64,000 bases of DNA from Streptomyces sp. RPT161 (GTDB lineage Bacteria > Actinomycetota > Actinomycetes > Streptomycetales > Streptomycetaceae), in contig NZ_JAPZVN010000004.1 in the NCBI RefSeq assembly GCF_027533845.1, forward strand, positions 124,001-188,000, read 5' to 3'. Within the stretch, counting starts at the first letter, position 1. Every line of letters starts with the position of its first letter. Below are positions 15,082 through 22,744 of this stretch, piece after piece. The position numbers were made by a program, and so were the translations under genes. Below the pieces are notes generated by a model. It did no database searches. It saw only the letters and a list, made by a program, of their open reading frames with translations, and was not told the origin of the DNA.

Positions 15082-15146
15082 GACGCAGGACCCTAGCGAA
15101 GTCAGGAAGCGGAATACCAGAGACCCCCGCGGCGCTGTGGTTGACC

Positions 15147-16088
15147 ATGGCACGTATCGGAAGTTCTGAACTCGACGTCTTTCCGCTCGCCTTCGGCGGG
15201 AACGTCTTCGGCTGGACCGCCGACGAGAAGGAGTCCTTCGAACTACTGGACGCCTACACGGCGGCGGGCGGCAACTTCATCGACACGGCGGACGTCTACT
15301 CCGCCTGGGTACCGGGCAACTCCGGCGGCGAGTCCGAGGCCATCATCGGCCGCTGGTTCGCCGCCCGCGGCAAGAGCAAGCGGGACCAGGTGGTGGTGGC
15401 CACCAAGGTCGGCTCGCACCCGGACTTCAGGGGTCTGCGGGCCGAGAACGTCAGGAGCGCGGTCGAGGCGTCGCTGCGGCGGCTGCAGACCGACCGCATC
15501 GACCTCTACTACACGCACCGCGACGATCCGGACACCCCGGTCGAGGAGTTCCTCGGCGCCCTCGACCAGCTGGTCAAGGAGGGCAAGGTGCGGGAGATCG
15601 GCGCCTCCAACATCAGTGCGGAGCGGCTCACCGAGGCGCTGGCCGCCTCCGAGCGCGAGGGCCTGGCCAGGTATGTCGCCCTTCAGCAGCACTACAACCT
15701 GGTGGAGCGCGACGAGTACGAGGGCGCGCTGGCCGAGGTCGTCGGCGAGCACGGCCTGTCGTCGGTCCCGTACTACGCGCTGGCGTCCGGCTTCCTCACC
15801 GGTAAGTACCGGCCGGGGGCGAAGGTGGACAGCGCTCGGGCCGGGAGCGCGGGCAAGTACCTGGACAGCGAGCGCGGACAGCGCGTCCTGGTGGCCCTGG
15901 ACGAGGTGGCGGAGGCCCACGGCGCCGAGGTGGCGACGGTGGCGCTGGCCTGGCTGGCGGCACAGCCGACAGTGGTGGCGCCGATCGCCAGCGCCCGCAC
16001 CCTCGACCAGCTGCCCGCACTGCTGGCCATGGCGGATCTCACACTCTCCGCCGACGAGGTGGCGAAGCTGACCGCCGCCTCGGCCTGA
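15147..16088 (+). CDS. Aldo/keto reductase
   Basis: An NADPH-dependent oxidoreductase of the (beta/alpha)8 type. The catalytic tetrad is present: Asp and Tyr in FIDTADVYSAW, Lys in VATKVGSH and His in YYTHRDD. About 313 residues, typical length; the C-terminal cofactor-binding stretch APIASARTLDQL is intact. The substrate cannot be told from sequence. ATG at 15147 is preferred over an in-frame TTG two codons upstream. It stands alone between the small membrane protein and the MarR unit. Confidence 0.93.
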   Translation: MARIGSSELDVFPLAFGGNVFGWTADEKESFELLDAYTAAGGNFIDTADVYSAWVPGNSGGESEAIIGRWFAARGKSKRDQVVVATKVGSHPDFRGLRAENVRSAVEASLRRLQTDRIDLYYTHRDDPDTPVEEFLGALDQLVKEGKVREIGASNISAERLTEALAASEREGLARYVALQQHYNLVERDEYEGALAEVVGEHGLSSVPYYALASGFLTGKYRPGAKVDSARAGSAGKYLDSERGQRVLVALDEVAEAHGAEVATVALAWLAAQPTVVAPIASARTLDQLPALLAMADLTLSADEVAKLTAASA

Positions 16089-16199
16089 GCGAGCGGCTGA
16101 GCAGGCAGTACGTCCGATGCCGCCCGGTTCCCCTGGAGGGAGGCGGGCGGCATCTTTGCGTCATCTTTACATACCAATGGCCGAATTCATTTGCGTGTA

Positions 16200-16235
16200 G
16201 CAACTAACCGGGCTTAAGGTTGCTTCAGGCAACTA
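16200..16235. promoter_or_regulatory. Likely MarR operator
   Basis: A perfect inverted repeat GTTGC-TTCAG-GCAAC (16219-16233) is preceded by another GCAACTA half-site (16200-16206), the two GCAACTA motifs being 29 bases apart. It lies 24 bases before the marR start and is probably where that regulator represses the operon. Confidence 0.6.
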
Positions 16236-16256
16236 GTACTGACTGGGGGGTGCTCC

Positions 16257-16766
16257 ATGGTGACGCGGACACGGTGCGCGGACCTGGTACAGCACCTCAG
16301 CGCACTGACCGCGGTCAGCCGTGGGCTCGGCCGCGCGTTGCCGCCCGACTGCCCGGCCGCCTCGGTCGCGGCGCTCCGGACACTCAGCCGGTACGGCGAG
16401 ATGCGGATCAGCCGCCTGACCGAACTCCTGGACGTGGACATGTCGGTGACCAGCCGTCATGTCGCACACCTGGCGGCCCGGGGCTGGCTGGACCGCCACC
16501 CCGACCCACAAGACAAGAGATCGCGGCTGCTGCGGCTCACCCCGCTCGGCGAACAGGTCCTGCGCGTGGCGTCGGACCGGATCGCCGAGGAACTGGCCGA
16601 CTTCCTCCTGGACTGGACGGACGACGAAGTGACGCAGCTCACCGTGCTGTTGGCCCGGTTGCGCGCGAGCTTCGACGACTGCCGACCGGGCCATCGCGCG
16701 ACAGCGGCACACACAGAGGTTTCCCCCGCCACCGCCCCACAGGTGGCCGGGACGAGTAAAGGATGA
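16257..16766 (+). CDS. MarR-family transcriptional regulator
   Basis: A 169-residue winged-helix regulator. The helix-turn-helix lies around residues 45-75 (RISRLTELLDVDMSVTSRHVAHLAARGWL), and the wing contains DPQDKRSRLLRLTPLG, the classic MarR signature. Its stop codon overlaps the next gene's region (ATGA), so it is co-expressed with the transporter that follows, as is usual for regulators that sense an exported compound. The operator-like palindrome just upstream suggests autorepression. The Ala/Thr-rich tail of about 20 residues is not conserved. Confidence 0.93.
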   Translation: MVTRTRCADLVQHLSALTAVSRGLGRALPPDCPAASVAALRTLSRYGEMRISRLTELLDVDMSVTSRHVAHLAARGWLDRHPDPQDKRSRLLRLTPLGEQVLRVASDRIAEELADFLLDWTDDEVTQLTVLLARLRASFDDCRPGHRATAAHTEVSPATAPQVAGTSKG

Positions 16767-16768
16767 CG

Positions 16769-19327
16769 ATGGCTTCAACCACACCGGCCGGTGTGCGGGA
16801 GGCGGATCCGAAGCGCGGTGCCCATCGGGCCCACGGGTCCCACGGCACACACGGCAACCACGGCACGCATCGGGACCACTCGGCTCCGATGACCCACCGA
16901 CAGATCATGGAGGCGCTCTCCGGGCTCATGCTCGGACTGTTCGTGGCGATCCTCTCGTCCACGATCGTCTCCACCGCCCTGCCCACCATCCTCGCCGACA
17001 TCGGCGGTGGCCAGGAGGCGTACACCTGGATCGTCACCGCGGCGCTGCTCGCGGTCACCGCCACCACCCCGCTGTGGGGCAAGATGTCGGACCTGGTGAG
17101 CAAGAAGCTCCTGGTCCAACTGGCGCTGGTGCTCTACATCGTGGCCTCCGTCGTCGCTGGTTTCTCGCAGAACGCCGGAACGCTGATCGCCTGCCGCGTG
17201 GTGCAGGGCATAGGCGCGGGCGGTCTGTCCGCCCTGTCCCAGGTGATCATGGCCGCGATGATCTCGCCGCGGGAGCGCGGCCGTTACAGCGGCTACCTCG
17301 GCGCCACCTTCGCGGTGGCCACCGTCGGCGGACCGCTGATCGGTGGTGTCATCACCGACACCAGCTGGCTCGGCTGGCGCTGGTGCTTCTACGTGGTGGT
17401 GCCCTTCGCGCTGATCGCACTGGTGGTGCTGCAGAAGACCATCCACCTTCCGGTGGTCAAGCGCGAGGTCAAGGTCGACTGGCTGGGCGCGTTCTTCGTC
17501 ACCGCCGCGGTCTGCCTGCTGATGGTCTGGGTCACCCTCGCCGGTGACAAGTACCCCTGGCTGTCCTGGCAGACCTACGTCATGGTGCCGGGCTCGGTGG
17601 TACTCGGCCTGATCTTCCTGTTCGTCGAGAGCAGGGCGAGCGAACCGATCATCCCGCTGCGGCTGTTCCGCAACGCCACGATCACCCTCACCTCGCTGGC
17701 CAGCGTCTTCGTCGGCGTCGCGATGTTCGCCGGAACGGTGTTCCTGAGCCAGTACTTCCAGTTGGCCCGCGGCAGGACGCCCGCGATGTCCGGTGTGCTG
17801 ACCATTCCGCTGGTGGTCGGGCTGTTCGTGGCATCCATGGCCTCCGGCCAGGTCATCACCCGCACCGGGCGCTGGAAGATGTTCCTGGTCTCCGGTGGTG
17901 TCTTCCTGACGGCGGGCGGCGGACTGCTGAGCCTGATGCGGTACGACACCCCGTACTGGCAGGTGGCCGTCTACATGGCGCTGCTCGGCCTGGGCATCGG
18001 TCTGATGATGCAGAACCTGGTGCTCGCCGTGCAGAACCAGGTGGCACCGAAGGACCTGGGCTCCGCCAGCTCGCTGGTGACGTTCTTCCGCTCGCTCGGC
18101 GGTGCGGTCGGCGTGGCCGCGCTCGGCGCGGCACTCAGCAACCGCATCAGCCACTACTCGTCCGAGGGCTTCGCGGCGCTGGGCATTCCGATGCCCGCCT
18201 CGCAAGGCGGCGAGGCGAACATCCCGGATCTCAAGAAGCTTCCGCTTCCGATCCGTACGATCGTCGAGAGCTCCTATGGGCACGGCATCGCGGATGTCTT
18301 CCTCTACGCCGCGCCGTTCGCGTTCGTCGCCTTCCTCCTGGTGCTGTTCATCAAGGAGGTGCCGCTGAAGACCGCGAGCGGTCTCCAGCAGACCGCGGGA
18401 GTTCCCGCGCACGACAGGGCGGCGGCGGACGCCCCCGTCACCATCCCAGCGCCGGCTCCCGAATCCGAGCTGGTCGCCGTGGCCGCAGCCGCCGATGCTC
18501 AGCCGGTCACCGTGTACGCCTCGGCGGGTAGGGGCCCGTCCGGCGAGGAGGTTCCCATGAACGGCATCACCATCCACGGTTCCGTCCGCAACGCCGAAGG
18601 CGTGGGCGTCGGTTCCGCTCATCTGACCCTGATATCCCTCCAGGGACGGCAGTTGGGCCGCGCCCAGGCCGGGACGGACGGCGGCTACTGGCTGGCCGCA
18701 CCCGGTGCGGGCTCCTACGTGCTGATCGCGGCGGCCGACGGTCACCAGCCGCAGGCCACCACCGTGGTGGTCGGTGACGCGCCGCTCGGCTACGACATCG
18801 TGCTGTCCGGCACCAGCGGCCTGGCCGGTGTGGTGCGCGGCGCCGCCGACGGATCGCCGGTGGACGGCGCCATGGTGGTGGTCACCGACGTACGGGGTGA
18901 GGTGCTGGCCACCGCGAAGACCGGTGAGTCGGGGGCGTTCACCTTCGACGAGCTGTCCGCGGGCGTCTTCACGCTGGCGGTCAACGCGGCCGGGTTCCGT
19001 CCGGCGGCGCAGCCGGTGGAGGTCGGTGGCCAGGGCGTCACCCGGGTGGAGATCCAACTCGCCTCCGGCGCGCATCTGCAGGGCACGGTACGGGCCGGTG
19101 CGGACCGGCTGCCGATGGCCGACGCGCGGGTCACGCTGATCGACGGGGCGGGCAACGTCGCCGGCACGGCGACCACCGATGACGACGGCTCCTACGCCTT
19201 CACCGATCTGAGCGCGGGCGACTACACGCTGATCGCCAGCGGCTACCCTCCGGTCGCCCGCACGCTTGTGGTGGACGGCAGGGGCGAGGACGCCTTCGAC
19301 GTCGAACTCGGCCACCCGGCCGAGTAA
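16769..19327 (+). CDS. 14-TM drug/proton exporter fused to Ig-like carboxypeptidase-regulatory repeats
   Basis: 852 residues. Residues 40-535 form a DHA2-type (14-segment) major facilitator: the loop GKMSDLVSKK follows segment 2, and motif C-like GATFAVATVGGPLIGG lies in segment 5. Before it is a His-rich cytosolic stretch with eight His in about 30 residues. After it, from about 595, are three tandem beta-sandwich units of the carboxypeptidase-regulatory-like type, recognisable by repeated DGSYAFTDLSAGDYTL-like endings. Transporters with such a tail are uncommon; the tail may bind substrate, a partner or the YceI-family product of the next gene, which carries the same domain. Start ATG 16769 has AAAGGA at good spacing. 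Substrate unknown; control presumably by the MarR upstream. Confidence 0.88.
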   Translation: MASTTPAGVREADPKRGAHRAHGSHGTHGNHGTHRDHSAPMTHRQIMEALSGLMLGLFVAILSSTIVSTALPTILADIGGGQEAYTWIVTAALLAVTATTPLWGKMSDLVSKKLLVQLALVLYIVASVVAGFSQNAGTLIACRVVQGIGAGGLSALSQVIMAAMISPRERGRYSGYLGATFAVATVGGPLIGGVITDTSWLGWRWCFYVVVPFALIALVVLQKTIHLPVVKREVKVDWLGAFFVTAAVCLLMVWVTLAGDKYPWLSWQTYVMVPGSVVLGLIFLFVESRASEPIIPLRLFRNATITLTSLASVFVGVAMFAGTVFLSQYFQLARGRTPAMSGVLTIPLVVGLFVASMASGQVITRTGRWKMFLVSGGVFLTAGGGLLSLMRYDTPYWQVAVYMALLGLGIGLMMQNLVLAVQNQVAPKDLGSASSLVTFFRSLGGAVGVAALGAALSNRISHYSSEGFAALGIPMPASQGGEANIPDLKKLPLPIRTIVESSYGHGIADVFLYAAPFAFVAFLLVLFIKEVPLKTASGLQQTAGVPAHDRAAADAPVTIPAPAPESELVAVAAAADAQPVTVYASAGRGPSGEEVPMNGITIHGSVRNAEGVGVGSAHLTLISLQGRQLGRAQAGTDGGYWLAAPGAGSYVLIAAADGHQPQATTVVVGDAPLGYDIVLSGTSGLAGVVRGAADGSPVDGAMVVVTDVRGEVLATAKTGESGAFTFDELSAGVFTLAVNAAGFRPAAQPVEVGGQGVTRVEIQLASGAHLQGTVRAGADRLPMADARVTLIDGAGNVAGTATTDDDGSYAFTDLSAGDYTLIASGYPPVARTLVVDGRGEDAFDVELGHPAE

Positions 19328-19463
19328 CTGAAGCGACTGGCGGGCGCGCACAGCGGAGACGCGTACCGCCAGTTCGGGGGAGACGGGTTCCGGTCGGCGG
19401 CCGGAGCAGGGGACGGCCGAGGCCGTCCGACCGGGACCCGTGACCAAACCAACAGGAGATGCA

Positions 19464-20309
19464 ATGACCACGCATGCGGGTGAGGGCAACACCGGTCTTC
19501 GGGCCCGGATCCGGACCAAGGACGGTTGGGCGGTGCAGCACGCGGTGCTGACCGTAACGGATATGACGGGCAGTCAGATACAGCGGGCGACCACGGACGA
19601 CGACGGCGTGGTGCGCACCGATCCGCTGCCGCCGGGGGCGTACACGGTGATCGTGACGGCCGTCGGCTACCAGCCCACCGCCTCGACGGCGATCGTCGGT
19701 GCCGCCGGGCGAGCGGACCTGGGCAACCTGGTGCTGGCCCGGCAGGGCGGGGTGGAGCTGCCGCCGCCGGGCCCCTGGACCATCGACCCGGCGCACTCCT
19801 CGGTGGGCGCCGTCGCGCAGCACCTGGGCATCTCCAGTGTGCGCGGCCACTTCACCGAGTTCCGCGGCCGGATCGAGATCGCGGAGAACGTCGAGCAGTC
19901 GTCGGTGGTCGCGGCGATTAGCACGGCGAGCATCGACACCGGCAACAAGATGCGCGACGACCATCTGCGGTCGCCCGACTTCCTGAACGTCGACGTCCAC
20001 CCGGAGATCACCTACCGCAGCACCGGCGGGGTCACCCCGGCCGGACCCGACCGCTGGACGGTGCGCGGCGAGCTGACGATGAACGCGCTGACCCGCCCGG
20101 TGGACCTGGACCTGACCTACCTGGGCACCGGCCCGGACCCGTGGGGCGGCACGCGGGCCGCGTTCCGCGCCACCGCGGAACTGCGGCGGGAGGACTTCGC
20201 GATGAACTACAACCAGGTCCTCCAGGCGGGCATCGCCGCCATCGGCACGACACTCCGCGTGGAACTCGACATCCAGGCGGTCCAGGGCGATTCGCTGCCG
20301 ATGGCATAA
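19464..20309 (+). CDS. YceI-family protein with N-terminal Ig-like domain
   Basis: A 281-residue protein. Residues 10-95 form a carboxypeptidase-regulatory-like beta-sandwich (ATTDDDGVVRTDPLPPGAYTV), matching the repeats on the preceding transporter. Residues 107-275 are a YceI lipocalin-like barrel starting at GPWTIDPAHSSVGAVAQHLG. YceI proteins bind isoprenoid or other lipid-like molecules; many are periplasmic, but this one has no signal peptide, so it is predicted cytosolic. AGGAGA precedes the ATG. It is 136 bases from the transporter and very likely in its operon. A role in delivering a hydrophobic compound to the exporter is inference. Confidence 0.88.
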   Translation: MTTHAGEGNTGLRARIRTKDGWAVQHAVLTVTDMTGSQIQRATTDDDGVVRTDPLPPGAYTVIVTAVGYQPTASTAIVGAAGRADLGNLVLARQGGVELPPPGPWTIDPAHSSVGAVAQHLGISSVRGHFTEFRGRIEIAENVEQSSVVAAISTASIDTGNKMRDDHLRSPDFLNVDVHPEITYRSTGGVTPAGPDRWTVRGELTMNALTRPVDLDLTYLGTGPDPWGGTRAAFRATAELRREDFAMNYNQVLQAGIAAIGTTLRVELDIQAVQGDSLPMA

Positions 20310-20342
20310 GACGCGGGGTGCGCCCTGGGGGCGCGAGCGCCG

Positions 20343-21110
20343 CTATGCGTGCGGAGCGCGCCCCCGCATCGCCTCGATCCCCGCGATGACGCACTCCAGC
20401 GCGAAGCCGAAGTCGCGCTCGCGGTACTGCGCCACCGGCCCCTCCATACGTTGGTCGATGATCGGCCCGAGTTCCCCGTACTCGGGCCGATCCCGTACCG
20501 CCCCCGCCATCTCGCGGAAGAGGTCGTCCTCGCTGGTACCGGTGCTACGGCACAGTTCGGTCCAGCGGCCCTCCACCGTGCCGTACCCGTACACGAACTG
20601 GTAGACGGCGGCCAGCGCGCCGGGGATGTGTTCCGGCGCCAGGCCCGAGCGCCGCATGACCCTGTGCGCCGCGGTGCTGAACGCCACTGACTTCGGGCCG
20701 ACGTTGGCGTACTCCCCCATCAGCCGGGACGCCCACGGATGCGTGGCGAGCGTCCTGCGGTAGCTGGTCGCGAACTCCCGTACCGCGTCGCGCCAGTCGC
20801 CCCCCGTCTCCGCGGCCTGTAGCGGAATCTCGGCGAACACCTCGTCCAGCGCGTATTCGAGCAGGTCGTCCTTGTTGTCCACGTACCAGTAGACGGACAT
20901 CGGCGTCACCCCGAGTTCGGCGGCAAGGCGGCGCATCGAGAAGTTCTGCAGGCCGTTGGCGTCCAGCAACTGGACCGTGGTGCGCACGATCTTGCCGTGG
21001 TCGAGGCCGACCGGCTGCTGGGAGGACTTCCTGCGCCGGCCGTCCCGCGCGCCGCCGCTCAGCCACACACTCGCTTGCGGCTTGCTGGCGCGGGGGGCGG
21101 CGGGGGCCAT
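20343..21110 (-). CDS. TetR-family repressor of the adjacent MFS exporter
   Basis: A 255-residue regulator with a TetR helix-turn-helix around residues 45-85 (FSMRRLAAELGVTPMSVYWYVDNKDDLL) and a C-terminal TetR_C ligand domain of the tetracycline/tetracenomycin-repressor type. A basic, variable N-terminus of about 35 residues precedes it. GAGGAG lies upstream of the ATG. It follows the MFS gene on the same strand with a 49-base gap, so the pair forms an operon and the repressor probably controls its own synthesis through the palindromes ahead of the MFS gene. Confidence 0.92.
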   Translation of the reverse strand: MAPAAPRASKPQASVWLSGGARDGRRRKSSQQPVGLDHGKIVRTTVQLLDANGLQNFSMRRLAAELGVTPMSVYWYVDNKDDLLEYALDEVFAEIPLQAAETGGDWRDAVREFATSYRRTLATHPWASRLMGEYANVGPKSVAFSTAAHRVMRRSGLAPEHIPGALAAVYQFVYGYGTVEGRWTELCRSTGTSEDDLFREMAGAVRDRPEYGELGPIIDQRMEGPVAQYRERDFGFALECVIAGIEAMRGRAPHA

Positions 21111-21159
21111 GGGCTTCTCCTCGGTCGAGCTTGCTCAGCGGTGCGCTGCGTACGTGATG

Positions 21160-22671
21160 CTAAGCCGCCACTTCCGCGGGGGCCGAGCTGCGGCGGTCCG
21201 AGTCGGCGCGGTCCGCACGGTGCAGCAGGAACGCGGCGAGCAGCCCACCGGCGAGCACGGCCGCCGCGCCGACGAGTTGGCTGACGCTGACGCCGGAGGC
21301 GAACGCGTGCGCCACAGCGGTGCGTTGCTCCTGGCCGTGCGCGGCGGCCAGTGCGGCGGGCAGCGAGCTGGCGCCGATCGTGGCCGGAAGCAGCGCGGCG
21401 AAACGGGAGTTGAGCACCGCACCGAGTACCGCGTTGCCAAGGCCGTTGCCGAACTCGGTCAGCGTGCCGTTGACGCCCGCGCCGATGCCCGCGCGCTCCG
21501 GCGGGATGGCACCCATGATCGCCGCGCCCATCGCGGGCGAGGCCATGGCGATGCCCACGCCCATCGTGATCAGGCCGACCACCATTCCGCCGTAGCCGTG
21601 GCGTCCCAGTACGGAGACGAGCGCGAGGCCGAGGGCGATCAGGGTCATGCCCAGCACCACCACACCTGCCGTGCCGAGCCTGCGCAGCAACCGGGCGCCG
21701 ACTCCCAGGATGTTGAGCAGTGCGATGCTCAATGCGAGCGGAACCGTGCACAAACCGGCCTTCAACGGACCGTAGCCGAGCACGAATTGCAGGTGCTGGG
21801 TGAGCAGGAAGAGGGAGCCGCCCATGCCGAACGCGACGAGGATGCCGCCCGCGACCGCGCCGACGAACCGCCTGTCACGGAAGAACCGCAGGTCCAGCAT
21901 GGGATGCGGGGTACGGCGCTCCCAGAGCGCGAAGCCGGTCATACCGGCGATGCCTACGAAGGCGGGCAGCAGTACGTCGCTGGAGCTCCAGCCGTGCACC
22001 GGGCCGGAGATGATCGCGTAGACGACGCCGAGCATGCCGATGACGGACAGGCCCGCGCCGGGCAGGTCGGGCCGATCGCCCAGCGGGTTCCTGGATTCGG
22101 GGATGTAGACGGTGACGGCGGTCAGGCCAAGCACTGCCACCGGCACGTTGACCAGGAAGATCGATCCCCACCAGAAGTGGTTGAGCAGCACCCCGCCGAT
22201 CAGCGGCCCGGCGGCGAAGCCGAAGGTGAGGACGGTGCTCCACAGGCCGATGGCCCTCACCCGCTCCTCGGCGTCGAAGACCTGGACGATCACCGCGAGG
22301 GTGCTGGTCATCAGGATCGCTCCGCCTACCCCCATTCCCGCGCGGGCCGCGATCAGCTCACCGGGGCTCTCAGCCAACGAAGCGATCAGCGATCCGATGC
22401 CGAAGAGCCCAAGTCCGGTCATCAACGCGCGCTTTCGACCGTATCGGTCGGCGGCGCTACCGACGGTGAGCAGCAGGCCGGACTGCGCCAGCGAGTAGGC
22501 GCTGATCATCCACTGTATGTCCGCGGTGCTCGCGCCCATTCCCTTGGTGAGGGAGGGGATGGCGACGTTCAGCACGGTGTTGTCGAGCAGGACGGTGAGG
22601 TGGGCGAGGCAGATGACGCCGAGGATCAGCCAGCGTCGGGGATGGGGCTGGATCTGGGCGGGGGCGGTCAA
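21160..22671 (-). CDS. DHA2-type multidrug exporter (EmrB/QacA-like)
   Basis: A 503-residue, 14-segment major facilitator. Typical features are the first segment with LTVLLDNTVLNVAIPSL (motif D1), the loop GSAADRYGRKRAL (motif A), and the segment 5 motif GFAAGPLIGG (motif C). The best start is a TTG at 22671, because AAGGAG lies six bases upstream; the frame continues upstream through the operator palindromes, which should not be coding. It probably exports antibiotics or other toxic compounds under control of the TetR regulator encoded just downstream. Confidence 0.92.
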   Translation of the reverse strand: MTAPAQIQPHPRRWLILGVICLAHLTVLLDNTVLNVAIPSLTKGMGASTADIQWMISAYSLAQSGLLLTVGSAADRYGRKRALMTGLGLFGIGSLIASLAESPGELIAARAGMGVGGAILMTSTLAVIVQVFDAEERVRAIGLWSTVLTFGFAAGPLIGGVLLNHFWWGSIFLVNVPVAVLGLTAVTVYIPESRNPLGDRPDLPGAGLSVIGMLGVVYAIISGPVHGWSSSDVLLPAFVGIAGMTGFALWERRTPHPMLDLRFFRDRRFVGAVAGGILVAFGMGGSLFLLTQHLQFVLGYGPLKAGLCTVPLALSIALLNILGVGARLLRRLGTAGVVVLGMTLIALGLALVSVLGRHGYGGMVVGLITMGVGIAMASPAMGAAIMGAIPPERAGIGAGVNGTLTEFGNGLGNAVLGAVLNSRFAALLPATIGASSLPAALAAAHGQEQRTAVAHAFASGVSVSQLVGAAAVLAGGLLAAFLLHRADRADSDRRSSAPAEVAA

Positions 22672-22679
22672 GGCAGCTC

Positions 22680-22744
22680 CTTGTACGGCGTACGGGACCA
22701 CACGGTGCTGTACACCGTAGAAGTTCCCCCGTACGCCGTACAAG
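22680..22744. promoter_or_regulatory. Triple-palindrome operator of the MFS-TetR operon
   Basis: A perfect 17-bp inverted repeat (CTTGTACGGCGTACGGG at 22680-22696 and its complement at 22728-22744) flanks a third palindrome, ACGGTG-CTGTA-CACCGT (22702-22718). Each arm contains its own GTAC-GGC-GTAC dyad. The array overlaps the MFS ribosome-binding site, as expected for TetR-type repression. Confidence 0.75.

Follow-up and report, generated by a model that had tools for sequence, protein, structure and literature searches.

In this study, we describe a three-gene operon within a 64,000-nt stretch of Streptomyces sp. RPT161 (contig NZ_JAPZVN010000004.1, positions 124,001 to 188,000; in the following called the window). 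In it, an exporter of the major facilitator superfamily (MFS) carries three carboxypeptidase-regulatory-like domains at its C-terminus, and the YceI-family protein encoded next to it carries one more at its N-terminus. Sequence comparison indicates that this pairing is old and spans four families. We tentatively read the locus, with a chance of being right that we put only a little short of even, as an antibiotic-inducible efflux operon in which the cytosolic YceI protein would bind a hydrophobic compound, dock on the tail of the pump and deliver the compound to it. We call the CarboxypepD_reg repeats of the pump tail R1 to R3, the same domain in the YceI protein RY, and that protein R-YceI. 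The three genes (MarR regulator, MFS exporter with R domains, YceI protein) lie in a row on the plus strand and comprise the following features; pLDDT is the predicted local distance difference test, TTR stands for transthyretin.

16257–16766, plus strand: MarR-family regulator, 169 amino acids (PF01047, 44.7 bits)
16769–19327, plus strand: DHA2-type MFS exporter ending in three R domains (PF07690, three times PF13620; alternative start 16763)
16895–18346, plus strand: 14-helix membrane body of the exporter (AlphaFold2; best PDB folds EfpA, MHAS2168/Rv1410, EmrB, QacA, NorC)
18371–18559, plus strand: low-confidence linker, probably disordered (pLDDT <50 at residues 537–599)
18563–18811, plus strand: R1, CarboxypepD_reg domain (PF13620; beta-sheet in the AlphaFold2 model)
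18812–19069, plus strand: R2, CarboxypepD_reg domain (PF13620)
19070–19324, plus strand: R3, CarboxypepD_reg domain (PF13620)
19464–20309, plus strand: R-YceI, 281 amino acids, N-terminus not signal-like (PF13620 and PF04264; model pLDDT 75)
19491–19745, plus strand: RY, N-terminal CarboxypepD_reg domain of R-YceI (PF13620, 48.2 bits; TTR-like folds 1qmu, 5aq0)
19776–20279, plus strand: YceI lipocalin domain (PF04264, 146 bits; folds 7bwl, 1y0g, 1wub, BcnA/BcnB)

The shared domain and its predicted location

The pump body matches MFS_1 with an e-value of 5e-46 (PF07690, 157.6 bits; cut-off 33.4), and the tail contains three CarboxypepD_reg stretches (PF13620, transthyretin-like) scoring 123.2 bits at a cut-off of 32.3. 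With 220.2 bits, the pump remains below the cut-off of 230.2 for TIGR00711, the model of the DHA2/EmrB subfamily; judged from these scores it is similar to DHA2 pumps, though not certified as one by that model. In R-YceI, PF13620 matches residues 12–84 with 48.2 bits (cut-off 32.3) and PF04264 residues 105–272 with 146.1 bits (cut-off 23.7). A first-pass annotation, made from the sequence alone, had proposed just this arrangement, with the domain three times at the exporter C-terminus and once at the YceI N-terminus, and the profile scores bear it out.

Within the 7.7-Mb host genome, all 12 PF13620 matches above the cut-off are located in four tailed MFS pumps (11 matches) and R-YceI (one match); two weaker matches lie elsewhere. 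Because of this confinement, the domain common to pump and R-YceI is more than chance. The other three tailed pumps possess three repeats (L098, L099) or two (L100), and a MarR gene adjoins L099 and L100. In the two other YceI genes of this genome, no R domain was seen. RY is about as similar to R1–R3 as these are among themselves (33–44% identity). We considered whether RY had recently been copied from one given tail repeat and rejected this origin, as none of the three stands out as its closest relative (34–44% identity).

The AlphaFold2 model of the pump (mean pLDDT 74) displays 14 helices, a linker and a beta-sheet tail. Of the lysine and arginine residues, 19 are on the membrane side that also holds the N-terminus and the tail, and 10 on the opposite side; following the positive-inside rule, the R1-R2-R3 tail is likely cytosolic. 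The R-YceI N-terminus lacks a hydrophobic stretch, its maximum 12-residue hydropathy being 0.88 compared to 2.40 for the first transmembrane segment of the pump. No such stretch was detected by hydropathy in the 80 R-YceI loci either (maximum 12-amino-acid mean 1.44; no signal-peptide program was run). Together with the predicted cytosolic tail, this places R-YceI and the pump tail likely both on the inner side of the membrane, and it agrees with the 14 segments, cytosolic tail and signal-less YceI protein of the first-pass annotation. The R-YceI model (pLDDT 75) contains a lipocalin-like barrel with Foldseek TM-scores of 0.71–0.86 (by target length) to 7bwl, 1y0g and 1wub; BcnA, BcnB, 3hpe and 2fgs fall in the same range. 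Among these matches are the “antibiotic sequester” 7bwl, the Escherichia coli YceI and TT1927b of T. thermophilus, while the fold of RY matches the transthyretin-like domain of carboxypeptidases.

For the pump gene, the ATG at 16769 is a likelier start than 16763, since in 40 homologs the near-invariant columns set in at residue 3 when counted from 16763. The start of R-YceI was taken as the ATG at 19464, 24 nt inside an open reading frame (ORF) opening at GTG 19440; its nearest named relative, with 96%, is found in Streptantibioticus rubrisoli. Site scans of 16050–20500 yielded no sigma-70-like site and a sole terminator-like site that falls within the pump gene, and no TTGC-N5-GCAA site was found up to 330 nt 3′ of the pump stop codon in 77 loci. 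A promoter, terminator or operator in the gap between pump and R-YceI was rejected on the basis of these scans, hence the R-YceI gene is likely co-transcribed with the pump. The alignments comprised the window plus 39 pumps for the pump structure and the window plus 40 proteins for R-YceI, out of 80 loci; three loci in which the contig end removes the body (L024, L047, L059) were left out of the pump alignments. The pump N-terminus (16769–16890) is disordered and histidine-rich and opens with a conserved MATTTPAGVR-like stretch; at least four histidines are present there in 25 of 68 homologs.

Pairing across genomes and a second pump in Streptacidiphilus fuscans

An R-R-R tail lies directly upstream of R-YceI in all 80 closest named loci, three of which (L024, L047, L059) show the tail alone because the contig ends there. 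A MarR gene is present in 75 of the 80; the remaining five are the three truncated loci, L006 and L005, the latter described below. At L006 (2336–2377), a locus without a MarR match, the pump gene is immediately preceded by the two operators. In a sample of 61 genomes of the family, we defined the paired class as R-YceI proteins of at least 64% identity, separate from a second class at 40–42%. Among the matches listed, 28 of 28 in the paired class are located 69–381 bp 3′ of a tail. In 246 genomes of the class, a tailed pump immediately precedes R-YceI in 24 of 24 paired-class matches, compared to none of ten in the second class; the paired loci extend to three other families, with identities as low as 49%. 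For these 246 genomes and for the search with the S. fuscans body described below, part of each genome’s candidates was scored (at most 10, at most 10 and at most 3). The two samples together yield 52 of 52 paired-class matches beside a tailed pump; ten are common to both, leaving 42 distinct loci, some of which may share species with the 80 named ones. The co-occurrence that the first-pass annotation had named as a check, and whose absence would have refuted it, is thus seen in each of these sets (80/80, 28/28 among the matches listed, and 24/24).

In S. fuscans, we identified a block of about 1.9 kb, consisting of an R1–R3 tail and R-YceI, on a different pump body (L005). Relative to the window, this body is 43% identical, the tail 67–75% and R-YceI 82–88%. 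The same body occurs without a tail, at 535–597 amino acids, in all seven S. fuscans relatives examined (same genus by label). Their DNA matches the L005 locus on both sides of the block, and no R or YceI gene was found in that stretch of the seven. Compared with the regular operon of S. fuscans (L008), the block shows 87% identity; the homology sets in at the linker and ends with the stop codon of R-YceI. The presence of such a block on a body that is tail-less in 7/7 relatives indicates at the sequence level that tail and R-YceI arrived together on another pump and move as one cassette. It suggests that the two work as a unit, and it strengthens the first-pass interpretation of the pair, in which the proteins might touch each other or a common ligand and perhaps hand a hydrophobic molecule to the pump.

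A clean insertion of the block was rejected as a settled reading. Between body end and downstream flank there are 54 bp in L171 and 1983 bp in S. fuscans, and these points lie close together in L171 alone, plus L170 with a further gap. The nearest relatives (L165–L167) contain about 2.0–2.1 kb of other DNA at the position of the block, mutually alike and without an R or YceI gene, in which the ORFs, by eye, look like genes for an oxidoreductase and for a sigma factor; L167 shows two weak translated matches to the block, 49 and 34 residues long. Because of these other genes, the block may have replaced previous content, and replacement appears as likely as insertion. Operators were not found at the L005 locus. 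The S. fuscans assembly is listed with 10% contamination; a chimera at L005 is unlikely, as both flanks match the relatives. Further genomes match L005 in the body only. The two S. fuscans copies of R-YceI are about 98% identical and the tails 81%, corresponding to synonymous divergence (dS) of 0.05–0.11 and 0.15–0.38, respectively. The lower dS of R-YceI suggests gene conversion, so that the graft is not dated by dS.

For L005, L131 and L132, the trees of body and tail conflict. L116 combines an R-YceI (64%) with a pump of different descent, whose body and tail (82% support for the tail) both group with L099, so that it does not count as a conflict. Across 53 of 87 paired loci, retained after thinning by identity, partial correlations (r) with tail distance are 0.44 for RY and 0.52 for YceI (0.37 and 0.48 after removal of L005 and L116), compared to −0.03 and 0.07 with body distance. 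These correlations are weak evidence, since adjacency on the DNA can explain them. All parts are under purifying selection, with a ratio of nonsynonymous to synonymous divergence (dN/dS) of 0.19–0.28, pooled over the first 150 close pairs.

Operators and the SAV4189–SAV4190 counterpart

Two predicted operators lie upstream of the MarR gene and, as a two-site pair, occur once in the genome:

16191–16203, no strand: predicted operator 1, TTGCGTGTAGCAA, SAV4189-type 13-bp palindrome, one mismatch to the consensus TTGCCYKHRSCAA
16220–16232, no strand: predicted operator 2, TTGCTTCAGGCAA, 29 nt from operator 1, two mismatches to the consensus

The consensus stems from Streptomyces avermitilis, where the MarR protein SAV4189 (171 amino acids) binds three 13-bp operators and is co-transcribed, across a gap of 22 nt, with the pump gene sav_4190 (PMC6036246). 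At least one TTGC-N5-GCAA palindrome was detected upstream of MarR in 75/75 loci. In 74/75, two are present, 28–29 nt apart and with zero to two mismatches to TTGCCYKHRSCAA; among 3490 control pieces, six had one or more such sites and one had two. Seven loci contain a third site 41–42 nt further upstream; four of these were tested, of which L043 and L071 reproduce the published consensus exactly and L053 and L070 nearly. No such operators were found near the tailed pumps L098, L099 and L100. With a PF01047 gene and two SAV4189-type operators upstream of the pump, the MarR control postulated in the first-pass annotation is supported.

The gap between MarR and pump ranges from −4 to 32 nt in 69/75 loci and from 43 to 146 nt in the remaining six. 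The window MarR is 51–63% identical to the MarR of 72/75 paired loci and 70–93% identical to those of L004, L007 and L008. For SAV4189 homologs among Streptomyces, 72–80% identity was reported (PMC6036246). The likeness to SAV4189–SAV4190 extends to MarR length (169–171 amino acids), the short MarR–pump gap, the TTGC-type 13-bp operators and the large pump gene; on operators, gene order and size, the window operon appears to be the counterpart of sav_4189–sav_4190. In contrast, the published system was described as a two-gene operon, and the word YceI is absent from PMC6036246. The homologs in Streptomyces coelicolor are SCO4032 and SCO4031 (PMC6036246).

In S. avermitilis, hygromycin B and thiostrepton derepress the system, raising pump mRNA about 75-fold and 71-fold. 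Deletion of sav_4190, which spanned +104 to +2446, increased avermectin by about 56–67% in the wild-type and about 15% in an industrial strain, and the authors argue that avermectin itself is not a substrate of SAV4190 (PMC6036246). The first-pass view of a little-studied module is supported for the tailed pump–R-YceI pair and the third gene; the MarR–pump half had already been studied in S. avermitilis (PMC6036246). Our literature search, outside of which most subscription papers lay, returned no title or abstract describing the pair and no mention of SCO4030 or SCO4029. SCO4031 and SCO4032 are listed among genes differentially expressed upon rapid chromosome relaxation (PMC6637917) and during hyphal differentiation (PMC3897704).

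Proposed mechanism and alternatives

According to the delivery reading introduced at the outset, MarR would repress the operon at the two TTGC-N5-GCAA operators and be released upon binding a toxic compound. Such release was shown for SAV4189 (PMC6036246), and we infer it by analogy for the window operon. The pump would export a hydrophobic drug-like or lipid-like compound, with its three R domains hanging in the cytosol on the flexible linker. R-YceI, as a cytosolic lipocalin, would take up the hydrophobic compound, dock on the pump tail through its own R domain and bring the ligand to the inward-facing cavity of the pump or its membrane entry. We likewise infer the docking, the ligand, the delivery and its direction. 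An extension, possible with a chance clearly short of even, is that tail and lipocalin form a transferable cassette, moved between distant bodies, that makes an ordinary exporter inside-fed by a dedicated carrier.

Related YceI proteins hold isoprenoids and capture hydrophobic antibiotics (PMC5350466), and other bacteria have them linked with, or fused to, a partner in the membrane (PMC9113575). One YceI makes E. coli more tolerant of pinene and terpinolene but not of limonene or terpinene (PMC4596283), and in Burkholderia xenovorans a YceI gene belongs to a methylglyoxal-responsive putative efflux operon (PMC4349456). The Burkholderia lipocalins BcnA/LcoA are antibiotic-induced, capture hydrophobic drugs and are gene-linked to a membrane protein, with fusions in some species; unlike R-YceI, they are secreted or periplasmic, and the partner is a cytochrome b561 (PMC5350466, PMC9113575). 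A working analog of the proposed hand-over is LprG–Rv1410 of mycobacteria, in which a lipid-binding partner and an MFS pump pass on a hydrophobic cargo (PMC10576003); LprG, however, acts on the outer side, as a lipoprotein of the periplasm, whereas here the carrier would be inside and share a domain with the pump.

The Rv1410 homolog 8pnl is among the best folds for the pump body. The DHA2 pumps EfpA, EmrB, QacA and NorC resemble the window pump in the 14-helix body and are kin in fold and sequence, but to our knowledge they possess neither an R-R-R tail nor a partner of the YceI family; likewise, we know of no R domain in the BcnA/LcoA lipocalins. Another fold match of the body is 3wdo, YajR, an E. 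coli MFS protein that like the window pump has a folded cytosolic C-terminal domain. YajR differs in its unrelated tail fold and its 12 helices, and it is not known to have a lipocalin partner.

Several observations weigh against delivery by R-YceI. Hygromycin B, which is one of the inducers in S. avermitilis, is hydrophilic, unlike known YceI ligands, and this speaks against a simple scheme in which MarR, YceI and pump share one ligand. As the sequences for tail and R-YceI are neighbors in the DNA, one recombination moves both without protein contact. Among the best 93 tails in the 61 family genomes (down to 140.5 bits; weaker or partial tails, including two-repeat pumps, were left out), 65 have no adjoining R-YceI; strict pairing accordingly applies to R-YceI of the paired class, always beside a tailed pump, and not to the tails, which often stand alone. 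In the window’s own genome, three of the four tailed pumps (L098, L099, L100) lack an adjoining YceI gene. Seventeen of 44 tail-bearing family genomes have no paired-class R-YceI among the matches listed, and we therefore rejected the notion that unpaired tails are always served by an R-YceI acting in trans. Six genomes without R-YceI were examined: in three (G030, G036, G053) the pump is the sole protein with above-cut-off R domains, so that its tail must act alone, and in the other three large ORFs or further proteins carry R domains as well. In G212, the operators are retained along with MarR and the pump (body 72%), but there is no adjoining R-YceI, and none was found in that genome at an e-value of 1e-40 (10 of 37 candidates scored); G192, from another family, keeps the pump (body 64%), also without an adjoining R-YceI. 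Class-2 R-YceI genes (L104–L115) have no tailed pump nearby in 12/12 loci among the matches listed.

Given the lone tails and the second class standing alone, the tail has a role of its own and R-YceI is an accessory to some tailed pumps; as G212 and G192 show, R-YceI is dispensable in some lineages. Conserved neighbors of the class-2 genes were considered and rejected, since ORFs shared beyond the gene and those overlapping it were seen in only three of 12 loci (L104, L109, L110); the R domain in L107 and L114 was assigned by tblastn coverage, not by phmmer. Extra paired-type tails on foreign bodies occur in G007, G021 and G238, yet a paired-class R-YceI is present in these genomes. Paired-like tails on distant bodies without R-YceI were also observed at L131, L132, L139 and L140, with R-YceI elsewhere in the genome. 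In another family, a MarR gene follows the R-YceI gene (L147) or, in a locus without R-YceI, the pump gene (L138).

The alternative that survives best, though we consider it rather unlikely, is a parallel defense without contact, in which MarR controls the induction of both proteins, the pump expels the compound, the cytosolic lipocalin soaks it up and the R domains provide stability or self-assembly in place of docking. The conserved operon, the secreted YceI lipocalins that sequester antibiotics unaided (PMC5350466), the class-2 R-YceI without a pump and the 65 of the best 93 tails without R-YceI are all in line with it. It accounts poorly for the confinement of above-cut-off R domains in the host genome to tailed pumps and R-YceI, and for the S. 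fuscans block on a second pump, which comprises the tail and R-YceI.

We give less credence still to R-YceI as a ligand-sensing regulator or assembly factor, a loaded lipocalin that alters activity or clustering of the pump from its tail and delivers no cargo. It draws on the same pairing and cassette evidence as delivery, and a tail occurring without R-YceI is expected of an autonomous regulatory or oligomerizing domain; the present evidence fits delivery equally and speaks neither for nor against regulation. Improbable, in our view, is a quinone or lipid chemistry in place of drug export, with menaquinone or another polyisoprenoid as the cargo of R-YceI and lipids as the substrate of the pump, on the model of Rv1410–LprG and triacylglyceride (TAG). 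Lipid-containing EfpA and MHAS2168, a homolog of the TAG exporter, are among the folds closest to the pump, and YceI structures hold octaprenyl ligands (PMC5350466; PMC9113575), but the antibiotic induction of SAV4190 points to xenobiotics (PMC6036246). Mere hitch-hiking of functionally unrelated neighbors, with a domain shared through local duplication, could explain why RY resembles R1–R3 about as much as these resemble each other, and is highly improbable given the pairing kept over four families, purifying selection on all parts and 52/52 paired-class matches (42 distinct loci) beside a tailed pump.

MFS exporters are generally thought to draw their substrates directly from the membrane or the cytosol. 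If delivery by R-YceI is true, a cytosolic lipocalin docked on a pump tail would be an inner-side carrier, the mirror image of LprG–Rv1410. S. fuscans, with the same cassette on two different bodies, offers a natural control. As the operon is widespread in Streptomyces and deletion of the pump raises avermectin yield in S. avermitilis (PMC6036246), the third gene is a target for mechanistic work and strain improvement.

Directly upstream of the operon, on the same strand, lies an aldo/keto reductase gene (15141–16088), at a position where S. avermitilis has a divergent membrane-protein gene (PMC6036246); in Burkholderia, an aldehyde reductase works together with the YceI lipocalin (PMC9113575). 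Downstream, a TetR regulator and an SmvA/QacA-like MFS pump are encoded on the minus strand (20343–22743), convergent with the operon, and many related loci have minus-strand MFS genes in a comparable position.

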